NCBI GenBank assembly: GCA_905181635.1
Contig: CAJIYM010000001.1
Location: 1 to 40,748 of the forward strand
DNA length: 40,748 nt
Reading direction: 5' to 3'
Source: an uncultured Flavobacteriales bacterium
GTDB lineage: Bacteria; Bacteroidota; Bacteroidia; Flavobacteriales; BACL11
The stretch's first letter is position 1, and each line of letters opens with the position of its first letter. The position numbers and the translations under genes were made by a program. The notes under the pieces were generated by a model. The model saw nothing but the letters and a program-made list of their open reading frames with translations. It was not told the DNA's origin and ran no database searches. Shown here piece after piece: positions 18,746 to 21,869 of the stretch.

Positions 18746-19135
18746 GTGAATAAAAGTAAAAAAATAATCAAACAGAGCATTAGTATTCTAATGTTGGTCA
18801 TTTATTTATTTAGTTCTTTATCTATTCTTTCATCTCACAATCATGATGACGATAAACATCACAATCATCATCATCATCAGGATTTACTAATTTGTGAGAA
18901 TCTTGATGGTAATTCCTTTAATACTTCTGATTGCTCTCACGACTCTCACATAATAAGTACAGAAGAAAGTTGCCCTTTATGTGATCATTTTTCTAATTGC
19001 AAACCAGCAATATTAGATAATCTGATTAACACTGTTTCAGAATCATTTACTTTAAATGAAGTTCAATTATTTACTTCACTTTACTTAATTGATGCAAATA
19101 ATACTCGAAACAAATCCCCTCCTTTCATAACATAG
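18746..19135 (+). CDS. His-rich exported small protein (putative metal binding)
   Basis: 129 residues from a GTG start; no ATG fits the signal sequence. A hydrophobic segment (about 10-30, ISILMLVIYLFSSLSILSS) acts as signal or membrane anchor and is followed at once by SHNHDDDKHHNHHHHQD. Further Cys and His residues occur in CSHDSHIISTEESCPLCDHF. The composition is typical of periplasmic zinc- or copper-binding proteins encoded next to metal-uptake TonB receptors. The next gene is such a receptor, 91 bp away on the same strand. The metal and its direction of transport cannot be read from the sequence. Confidence 0.75.
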   Translation: MNKSKKIIKQSISILMLVIYLFSSLSILSSHNHDDDKHHNHHHHQDLLICENLDGNSFNTSDCSHDSHIISTEESCPLCDHFSNCKPAILDNLINTVSESFTLNEVQLFTSLYLIDANNTRNKSPPFIT

Positions 19136-19226: not shown

Positions 19227-21443
19227 ATGAAAATCTTTATTTTTTCATCATTTTTTATGATGAATGTTTTTACACTTTTTTCTCAAACAAAGGGCATTAT
19301 ACTAGATGCTTTTGATACTCCAATTAATGAAGTTGCTATATTTTTTCCAGATCAAAACATCATAATATACAGCAACAATGATGGAAAATTTATCACTAAA
19401 TTAGATATTCCTGACAATAGTTATATAAATTTTTTAAAAAATGGATATTCTTCTAAAACTTTAAAGTACAAATCTGATTTGGAATTAAAGATTGTTCTTG
19501 ATAAACTTCATATTACTTTAGATGAGGTGGGTATTGTCGAATCTTACTCTGAGTTAGGAAATAGTAGGCTAATAAATATTGAAAAAAAATCACTGAGTTC
19601 TCAAAATTCTATTTCTATGGTAGAAGACATTGCAGAATTAAGTGGAGTTGATATGATTTCTTCAGGATTAGGAATTCAGAAAGTAGTTGTTAGAGGCTTG
19701 TCTGGTATGCGTGTTGTAACATATTTAAATGGTATGCAAATTAATAATCAACAGTGGGCTAATGATCATGGAATAGGTTTTACTGATTTAGGTTTAAGTG
19801 AAGTAGAATTGATTAAGGGGGCTAGTGCATTAAAGTATGGGTCTGAAGCAATTGGAGGGTTACTGTATTTTAAAGATGCTCCATTTATTGCTAATGATAA
19901 ATTAAAAGGCTTTATTTCTACAGGATTTAATAATAGCAGCATTTTAAGTAACAATAAATTTGGGGTAAAATTTAATAAAAAGAATTTATTTTTTAATCTA
20001 TATGCTCAGTATGCCATTTCATCAGATTATCGACTCCCCGACAATACTTATCTTTTTAACTCAAGATTTAAACAGAATGCAATTAAATTCTCTTTAGGCT
20101 ATAGATATAAGAAATGGCAAAATATTTTTAGGGCCCAAATTCATAATGAAGTTCCTGGTATACCAGGACATGTTCATGGAGACCCTTCTAAGGTTGATAT
20201 TGACGCTATAACATCTATTGAATTAGATTTAGCCGAAGACTTTAGTATAAAGAAGCCATGGCAGGTTGTAAATAATCAACTGCTTATTTATGAGACTAAT
20301 TATATGCTTAATAATTTTAAATTTGAATTTTATGCAGGTCACTTTATAAATAATTTAAAGGAGTATGGTGAAAAATTATCAAGACCTGCTTTTGACCTTG
20401 AACTTTCGAATACACTTTTGTCTACAAGTATCAGATATATATCTGACAAATTAACTCTGCAAATAGGCTCTCAATTTGTTTCCCAAGAAAATAAGAATAA
20501 TATTAATGATAGGTTAGTGCCTAATGCATCTTCTTTTAATTTAGGGCCTTATGTACTAATAGAGTATGAAAAAAATAATTTTGGAATAAACTCTGGTGTC
20601 CGATATGATTATAAAAGATTAAGATCAGATGATAAGGTTTTAGATTTAGATTATGATAATTCATTTAATAGTACCAGCTTCTCTTCAGGTTTATATTATA
20701 GATTTATTGATCATATTTTTAGGATGACATTCTCTGGAGCTTACAGATCCCCTCATGTTTCTGAATTGTTTTCTGATGGGGTTCATCATGGTACTAGTAG
20801 GTATGAAATTGGAGATAAGAAATTGGGGATAGAATATGCTAATCAGATAGATCTTAAATATCAGTGGTCTAATGACCATTTAGGGATTGTTATAAATCCA
20901 TTTATTCAAGATATATCAGATTTCATTTCTTTGGATCCTACAGATTCGGTTATATCAGGATATAAGGTTTACAATTATATGCAATATGATAAAGTTGAGA
21001 TTAATGGTATCGAAATGAACTTACACTATCACCCACATCAATTACACAATTTGCATTTTGAACAATCATATTCTTTTTTGCAAGCTAGAATTAAAAACAG
21101 TAAATATGGATTAGCATTAGTTCCTGCGAATAGTATAAAGACTAAAATATTATTTAAATTCAATGATTATGAAAGGTTATTAAAGTTTGATGATTTTTCA
21201 ATTTATCATATATATAAATTTAAGCAAGATAGTTATGCTGAATATGAAAAATTAACAGACTCATACAATGTTATAAACCTTCAATTAGGGATCAAGTTTA
21301 ATTCTCAATTTTATTGTTCTTTAGGCGTAAATAATATTCTTAATGAAACTTATACGCCACATATCTCAAGAGTGAGAGGAATAGCAGGTGGGGTTCCAAA
21401 TCCTGGAAGATCCTTTAATATTAATTTAAAATATGAATTCTAA
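19227..21443 (+). CDS. TonB-dependent outer-membrane receptor, ZnuD-like
   Basis: 738 residues. The signal peptide ends near FTLFSQTKG. Residues ~20-95 are a carboxypeptidase-regulatory-like beta-sandwich. The plug domain spans about 105-220 (VVVRGLSGMRVVTYLNGMQI ... GLSEVELIKGASALKYGSEA). The rest is a 22-strand-type beta barrel ending in an aromatic residue (INLKYEF). A barrel segment APxxSELFSDGVHHGTSRYEIG-like (here YRSPHVSELFSDGVHHGTSR) recalls zinc receptors of the ZnuD group, and VPGIPGHVHGDPS adds histidines. With a His-rich protein before it and a Cys/His lipoprotein after it, uptake of zinc or copper is the best guess. The stop codon is one base from the first stem of the hammerhead ribozyme motif. 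Confidence 0.8.
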   Translation: MKIFIFSSFFMMNVFTLFSQTKGIILDAFDTPINEVAIFFPDQNIIIYSNNDGKFITKLDIPDNSYINFLKNGYSSKTLKYKSDLELKIVLDKLHITLDEVGIVESYSELGNSRLINIEKKSLSSQNSISMVEDIAELSGVDMISSGLGIQKVVVRGLSGMRVVTYLNGMQINNQQWANDHGIGFTDLGLSEVELIKGASALKYGSEAIGGLLYFKDAPFIANDKLKGFISTGFNNSSILSNNKFGVKFNKKNLFFNLYAQYAISSDYRLPDNTYLFNSRFKQNAIKFSLGYRYKKWQNIFRAQIHNEVPGIPGHVHGDPSKVDIDAITSIELDLAEDFSIKKPWQVVNNQLLIYETNYMLNNFKFEFYAGHFINNLKEYGEKLSRPAFDLELSNTLLSTSIRYISDKLTLQIGSQFVSQENKNNINDRLVPNASSFNLGPYVLIEYEKNNFGINSGVRYDYKRLRSDDKVLDLDYDNSFNSTSFSSGLYYRFIDHIFRMTFSGAYRSPHVSELFSDGVHHGTSRYEIGDKKLGIEYANQIDLKYQWSNDHLGIVINPFIQDISDFISLDPTDSVISGYKVYNYMQYDKVEINGIEMNLHYHPHQLHNLHFEQSYSFLQARIKNSKYGLALVPANSIKTKILFKFNDYERLLKFDDFSIYHIYKFKQDSYAEYEKLTDSYNVINLQLGIKFNSQFYCSLGVNNILNETYTPHISRVRGIAGGVPNPGRSFNINLKYEF

Positions 21444-21444
21444 A

Positions 21445-21505
21445 AATATTCTGATGAGCTTTCATGAAGCGAAATACCTTAATAGTTTCTTAAGGTATCA
21501 ATATT
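21445..21505 (+). ncRNA. Hammerhead ribozyme (type I, open stem I)
   Basis: All conserved parts are present in the right order. Stem I is AATATT (21445-21450) with AATATT (21500-21505), 6 perfect pairs. The core is CTGATGA (21451-21457). Stem II is GCTT/AAGC (21458-21461, 21467-21470) with loop TCATG. GAAA (21471-21474) follows. Stem III is 9 perfect pairs (21474-21482 with 21490-21498) with a 7-nt loop and the required A15.1-U16.1 pair. H17 is C at 21499. Cleavage is predicted between 21499 and 21500, 25 nt before the lipoprotein ATG. It would separate the receptor message, leaving stem III as a 3' hairpin, from the lipoprotein message. Activity is untested; loop-loop contacts cannot be judged by eye. 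Confidence 0.88.
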
Positions 21506-21524
21506 AATAATTAAAAACAAAAAA

Positions 21525-21869
21525 ATGAAAAAAACAAATTTATTAACTGTAGCAACACTATGTCTAGCTTTAGGCTTTACATCTTGTTCAAAAGATGAAG
21601 GTACTGTGCCTGCTGAACTTTGTGCAGATTGTCATATTGCCTTACCTGATAAGTCAGAGACAGTATGGGAAATACTTGATTCTTCTGGAGAGCATATTGA
21701 ATTTTGCGGACAAGAGTTAACTGATATAGAGTCATCAAGTGCTGTTCGCGTCGTTACAGATACTTTGTATTCTGATGCTGGTGATATTCTTTTGCCTGGT
21801 GAATATGGACCAGGAAGTGCTAATTCACTATATGAAATTCATTGTGGAGAAGAAGATGAAGATCATTAA
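21525..21869 (+). CDS. Cys/His lipoprotein of the metal-uptake-like cluster
   Basis: 114 residues. The lipobox FTSC (Cys21) indicates a lipoprotein. A CADCH motif (Cys33, Cys36, His37) follows at once; the CxxCH pattern is that of c-type haem attachment, but the short protein and two more cysteines (in EFCGQE and IHCGEE) equally fit a structural or transport metal site. The tail is acidic and ends EEDEDH. It lies downstream of the receptor in what is probably one transcript, separated by the hammerhead ribozyme. It may be a surface partner that hands metal to the receptor, which is inference from context. Confidence 0.7.
   Translation: MKKTNLLTVATLCLALGFTSCSKDEGTVPAELCADCHIALPDKSETVWEILDSSGEHIEFCGQELTDIESSSAVRVVTDTLYSDAGDILLPGEYGPGSANSLYEIHCGEEDEDH

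Follow-up and report, generated by a model that had tools for sequence, protein, structure and literature searches.

A type I hammerhead ribozyme conserved between a TonB-dependent receptor gene and a lipoprotein gene in Flavobacteriales

Introduction

The glmS ribozyme is the known case of a self-cleaving ribozyme that is kept in a bacterial host mRNA. Bacterial hammerheads are known mainly from phages and mobile elements. Intercistronic type I hammerheads have been described in phages and prophages (Perreault et al. 2011, PMC3088659), where some of them cut in vitro and in E. coli, and where their proposed role is to cut long transcripts into gene-length mRNAs (PMC3088659). What hammerheads do in bacteria has remained an open question, and they show a persistent link to bacteriophage genomes (PMC6155905).

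Here we analyze a hammerhead found between a receptor gene and a lipoprotein gene in the window, by which we mean the whole stretch of 40,748 nucleotides of DNA from an uncultured Flavobacteriales bacterium. The element resembles the phage and prophage hammerheads in its core, its type I order, its 6-bp stem I and its pentaloop II, as well as in its position, which immediately follows a stop codon and precedes the next ATG by about 20-40 nt. In phages, however, there are often several hammerheads per element and the neighboring genes vary, whereas the bacterial element occupies a single site in one host metal-uptake gene pair and is kept over three families. With glmS it has in common that a self-cleaving ribozyme is retained in a bacterial host mRNA, but glmS has another fold, lies in the 5' leader of one gene and needs a metabolite cofactor, while the element studied here is a hammerhead located between two cistrons and gives no sign of an aptamer.

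Results

The receptor-lipoprotein junction contains a complete type I hammerhead

Read directly, the forward-strand sequence from 21445 to 21505 of the window is a complete type I hammerhead (Table 1). All of the elements that an earlier note on this DNA had listed (CTGATGA, stems I-III, GAAA and C17) are present, and the type I order it assigned is correct, because stem I is open and stems II and III are closed by loops. The same note placed the element 1 nt after a stop codon and 20 nt before the next start codon; the first distance holds, but the actual spacing between stem I and the ATG is 19 nt. Across the 26 bacterial copies that we tabulated, the distance from the predicted cut to the ATG is 22-27 nt in 25.

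A descriptor scan of the window returned this site alone. When dinucleotide-preserving shuffles of the window were scanned on both strands, stems of at least 6, 4 and 9 bp occurred in 0 of 12,985, and stems of at least 5, 4 and 5 bp occurred in 4. This chance test was made on shuffles of the window only and not of the whole genome. Stem I of the window copy consists entirely of A-U pairs, and the predicted minimum-energy fold contains stems II and III and lacks stem I, so cleavage may be slower in this copy than in those of its relatives.

Table 1. Features of the receptor-lipoprotein locus, in coordinates of the window
Feature	Coordinates	Strand	Basis or remark
Small His-rich, probably exported protein	18746..19135	+	ORF list; start at GTG 18746 or ATG 18791; sequence HNHDDDKHHNHHHHH
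TonB-dependent receptor, heme/ZnuD type	19227..21443	+	Pfam Plug and TonB_dep_Rec barrel
Receptor stop TAA, 1 nt (A) 5' of stem I	21441..21443	+	sequence
Type I hammerhead ribozyme, whole	21445..21505	+	descriptor and shuffles; covariation; order-wide matches; phage-only model, 34.4 bits
Stem I 5' strand, AAUAUU	21445..21450	+	pairs with 21500-21505 (6 bp); double changes in 3 of 6 pairs among relatives
Catalytic core, CUGAUGA	21451..21457	+	U at position 7 here, replaced by C in G021 and G119; aligned rows and later loci
Stem II, GCUU/AAGC, 4 bp and a possible U-G; pentaloop UCAUG (21462-21466)	21458..21470	+	double changes in G016, G070 and G131; phage-subtype pentaloop
Core GAAA (G12 A13 A14 A15.1)	21471..21474	+	invariant across all copies
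Stem III, 9 bp counted from A15.1-U16.1; loop UAGUUUC (21483-21489)	21474..21498	+	double changes in 5 of 6 scored pairs
Predicted cut after C17 (21499)	21499..21500	+	C17 in all aligned rows and all 26 tabulated copies; site of the cut inferred from known hammerheads
Stem I 3' strand, AAUAUU; predicted 5' end of lipoprotein message	21500..21505	+	covaries with 21445-21450
A/U-rich rest of leader, to ATG at 21525	21506..21524	+	25 nt from cut to ATG here
Lipoprotein, CxxCH, acidic C-terminus HCGEEDEDH	21525..21869	+	lipobox-like FTSC; small CxxCH ORF after the receptor in relatives

The hammerhead helices covary around a nearly invariant core

We gathered receptor homologues by protein similarity, independently of the RNA. 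Where the receptor was at least about 49% identical and its 3' junction was on the contig, the RNA was present at the junction, with a single exception (G097). Alignment of 23 loci at the receptor-lipoprotein junction gave a hammerhead pairing in which 99.1% of cells are paired, with compensatory double changes in 10 of 16 base pairs, distributed across all three helices. None of 500 shuffles matched either the paired fraction or the double-change count, and pairings of the alignment that were slid out of register were only 25-39% paired. Examples of compensation are the change of stem II from GCTT/AAGC to GTCT/AGAC in G016 and G131 and to GCCT/AGGC in G070, and that of stem I from AATACT/AGTATT to AGCATT/AATGTT in G070, a member of family f7.

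The earlier note had proposed to look for covariation of stems I-III in related genomes, and double changes were found in all three. It also held that changes of core bases amid kept surroundings would refute the assignment, and no such loci appeared: the core is invariant except at position 7, where U is replaced by C in G021 and, in the wider set, in G119. Position 7 is left free in known hammerheads. The alignment carries a risk of circularity, as a regular expression that demands the core was used to gather the rows, and a loose stem I pattern set where each row was trimmed at its 3' end. No requirement was placed on stem III or on the 5' strand of stem I, and loci without a core were inspected and scored as absent. 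The core, the covarying helices and the open stem I together support the identification of the element as a type I hammerhead; self-cleavage itself is inferred, there being no RNA or cleavage data.

Recognition by Rfam and by covariance models

No Rfam model matched the window at the gathering cut-offs. In a permissive search, the top match was RAGATH-1-hammerhead (RF03152) at 30.5 bits against a cut-off of 56.3, and Hammerhead_3 (RF00008) scored 19.5 bits against a cut-off of 48.5. The lack of an Infernal match had been named beforehand as a result that would count against the element, and at gathering this result did arise. Rfam showed the same blindness toward hammerhead-bearing IMG/VR phage loci, which it missed at gathering in 12 of 12 cases. 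As these phage loci are clear, Rfam is insensitive to this subtype and its silence on the window is not decisive.

The best Rfam resemblance is to RF03152, with which the element has a common CUGAUGAG...CGAAA layout and an open stem I, but the upstream hairpin of that model corresponds here to the last codons of the receptor and is barely formed. Given this and the score of 30.5 bits against 56.3, we ruled out filing the element under RAGATH-1-hammerhead. Across the order, RF03152 had no match above its 56.3-bit cut-off in 196 genomes and one sub-threshold match. Hammerhead_3 aligns with the core and stem II, but it represents a circularly permuted type and remains a poor match below its cut-off.

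We built three covariance models, R1 from the aligned bacterial rows, R2 mainly from phage hammerheads together with eight bacterial rows, and R3 from phage copies alone. R3 recognizes the window copy at 34.4 bits with the expected pairing when filters are off, and it recognizes 26 related loci at 28-57 bits, so the element qualifies as one that a phage-only model can identify. Under default filters the window score is 20.1 bits, because the long stem III is misaligned, and the near-identical copy in G008 also has a low R3 score with filters on.

The element is confined to one gene junction in three families

Of 396 genomes of the order, 27 gave strong R1 matches, at 28 places and with 57-84 bits; these 27 represent three families and 14 genera (21 genomes in f1, 3 in f7 and 3 in f9). 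R1 gave nothing further in 395 genomes of the class. In the order, R2 recovered the 28 places of R1; it found nothing additional in sampled Flavobacteriales or in a sample of 296 genomes from the phylum. Weak R1 matches of 23-31 bits (G001, G007, G018, G019, G002, G046 and others) were rejected as chance; a core scan found no full hammerhead around the eight inspected, and one weak match lies inside an ATP-binding-protein-like coding sequence (L064). Public records list the relatives as marine Flavobacteriales assemblies and as genomes whose names are of single-cell style.

All 28 copies lie just 3' of a ZnuD/heme-type TonB receptor, at one common junction, and a CxxCH lipoprotein gene comes next in 27 of them (26 seen in the wider set, plus G057). 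The remaining copy is the second one in G025, which follows a receptor fragment and has an unidentified downstream gene. This further receptor end, accompanied by a ribozyme copy of its own, is situated at a contig end (L122, G025:C3:29000-29057). Elsewhere, in G014 (L020), the receptor frame is split in two in its 3' part and the ribozyme is intact, which could be an assembly error or a pseudogene.

The ribozyme is absent from four f9 genomes (G059, G072, G083 and G091) and from G097, all of which retain both genes, so it is not essential to the pair; in three of these five, the intergenic gap is just 6-9 nt. On the receptor tree, the presence or absence of the ribozyme requires three changes of label. 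Two copies are on contigs of 1.39 and 1.06 Mb, indicating that these copies are chromosomal. With host genes around it, the element does not qualify as part of a phage or mobile element.

The window ribozyme is near-identical to that of G008 (L005), yet the two receptors are only 69% identical, and the receptor of G013 (L003) is 89% identical to that of the window, yet its stem III is different. This pattern suggests, from sequence comparison alone, that the ribozyme-lipoprotein junction may have been exchanged between strains.

Phage hammerheads have the same stop-codon-anchored layout

Pattern scans of IMG/VR yielded 155 distinct hammerheads of type I, each having 16 or more stem pairs. Since this set was selected by its stems, its pairing statistics are not evidence; its stop-codon and flank statistics are independent of the selection. 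The stop of an ORF of at least 40 aa falls within -6 to +10 nt of CTGA in 122 of the 155 phage copies (79%), compared with 4.1% of random same-strand positions, and an ATG follows the cut by 10-40 nt in 59%, compared with 7.3% of random positions. The window copy has this same stop-codon-anchored layout.

Phage copies with a tetraloop II carry a 3' TA stem I flank in 53 of 88 cases, and those with a pentaloop II have a 3' AA flank in 35 of 57 and a 5' A in 56 of 57. Among the 26 tabulated bacterial copies, the pentaloop and the 5' A are found in all 26 and the 3' AA in 23. The correlation between loop and flank suggests, by indirect evidence only, a putative contact between stem I and loop II, an interaction that gives fast cleavage at cellular Mg2+ (PMC6155905). 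In the phage set, it looks as though stem I and loop II make contact in two alternative ways. As a separate observation, five IMG/VR contigs (L182, L186, L215, L279 and L254) have three to five type I hammerheads each, most of them at ORF ends, as if every few genes were separated by cutting.

The surrounding genes point to metal or heme uptake

The nearest NCBIfam models to the receptor are TonB-hemin and ZnuD, both below cut-off, and its best solved relative is ZnuD (4rdr, E 1.5e-9). The lipoprotein matches no Pfam or NCBIfam family; its relatives have HDHDDDH-type tails. Directly before the receptor, the small protein encoded at 18746-19135 has a dense His/Asp stretch and no Pfam or NCBIfam match, and an orthologue is found at the matching place in G013. 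In f7 and f9, a gene next to the receptor encodes a Fur-family regulator. The theme of the operon is likely to be the uptake of a metal (zinc) or of heme, the substrate not being established. We also observed a GCAACTnAGTTGC-like palindrome, a candidate Zur/Fur box, close to the receptor or to a divergently oriented Fur-family gene at five loci (L010, L018, L024, L028 and L029); no Zur-box-like palindrome was found upstream in the window.

Discussion

We conclude, with a probability of about 0.7, that a type I hammerhead is kept by selection in one host operon and that its co-transcriptional cut splits the message. The ribozyme exists at this junction, is conserved there, has covarying helices and a core unchanged but for position 7, and is specific in location to one gene pair. 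That it cuts in cells, and what cutting does to the two messages, is inferred.

The receptor and the lipoprotein would be co-transcribed, as inferred from a junction of about 60-100 nt that is almost all ribozyme and leader. Once transcribed, the ribozyme would fold and cut after C17, an inference that rests on core conservation, on covariation in the stems and on the relatives found in phages and prophages. Hammerhead products carry a 2',3'-cyclic phosphate and a 5'-OH (PMC6155905), and from this chemistry the two messages are expected to have differing ends. The receptor message would have stem II, the hairpin of stem III and a 2',3'-cyclic phosphate at its 3' end, an arrangement that should shield it against 3' exonucleases. 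The message for the lipoprotein would start with a 5'-OH and a short unstructured leader of 22-27 nt, with its start region freed from stem I, and should avoid decay that depends on a 5'-triphosphate. By inference only, the two cistrons might then be translated and degraded at different rates. The position of the ribozyme and the length of the leader fit such an operon-splitting role, which remains an inference.

Cleavage could also be gated by translation, with a ribosome that ends at the receptor stop covering stem I and the core, so that cutting occurs mainly on messages whose receptor is untranslated and would depend on translation instead of being constitutive. The stop lies 5-9 nt before the core in most copies, and the phage copies are anchored to stop codons far beyond the random expectation (122 of 155 against 4.1%). 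Against this, in three g9 genomes the ribozyme lies about 35 nt past the stop, outside the footprint of a terminating ribosome, and proximity to the stop may merely reflect compact genomes; we regard gating as possible but improbable. We hold, slightly more tentatively still, the wider proposal that a hammerhead, probably taken over from a phage at one time, now serves as a lasting control of the operon, in which ribosome-gated cleavage would report receptor translation and set the supply of lipoprotein. Type I architecture is common in IMG/VR phages, which makes a phage origin long ago plausible. The same abundance could be taken to favor a recent phage or mobile-element insertion that carries the hammerhead without any host role, but the element occurs at one gene pair only, with just three label changes on the receptor tree and with copies on megabase contigs, ten scanned neighbors contained no phage-like Pfam families, and the R2 searches found the ribozyme neither with integrase genes nor at unrelated host sites. 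We consider recent insertion the least credible of the explanations weighed here. A prophage origin of the locus is likewise unsupported by the neighboring genes.

A switch in which the cleavage rate tracks free Zn2+, Mn2+ or Fe2+ and thereby tunes the lipoprotein/receptor ratio would suit an operon that looks like one for metal or heme uptake and that adjoins Fur-family regulators in relatives, and hammerhead rates are known to depend on the divalent ion (PMC7151607). There is, however, no extra conserved aptamer-like domain, the junction having little beyond the ribozyme and the leader, and the same architecture serves unrelated phage genes, which leaves a metal-responsive switch very unlikely. 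Even less weight can be given to a plain stem III hairpin that acts as a decay barrier or attenuator and for which the hammerhead core is decoration or a fossil. Stem III is good on its own and dominates the predicted fold, but the sequence has no U tract 3' of it, stems I and II covary too, and the unpaired core is unchanged except at position 7 even where the receptors have diverged to about half their residues. The reading that we prefer remains a selected hammerhead that splits the message of this operon.

The earlier note knew of no described hammerhead in such a setting. Intercistronic ones have in fact been described in phage and prophage operons since 2011 (PMC3088659), so this held only for the host-chromosome metal-uptake locus, which looks new. 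We found no published description of a hammerhead tied to a host operon and retained across families and, in the open literature searched, no paper that links hammerheads with Bacteroidota; literature linking hammerheads with TonB or Bacteroidetes, as judged by titles and abstracts, did not concern such a site. Our coverage of the older literature is incomplete and a prior description is not excluded. What appears to be new, in the literature searched, is a hammerhead that is host-chromosomal, gene-specific and long conserved; intercistronic hammerheads as such were already known.

The restriction of a covarying structure to one locus and one gene pair across three families is strong evidence that the host benefits from self-cleavage in a defined mRNA. 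The element would join a very short list of self-cleaving ribozymes that are kept in bacterial host genes. The stop-codon-anchored layout that it has in common with the phage copies suggests that such elements may work by a general rule, and a single conserved locus makes the function of bacterial hammerheads testable.
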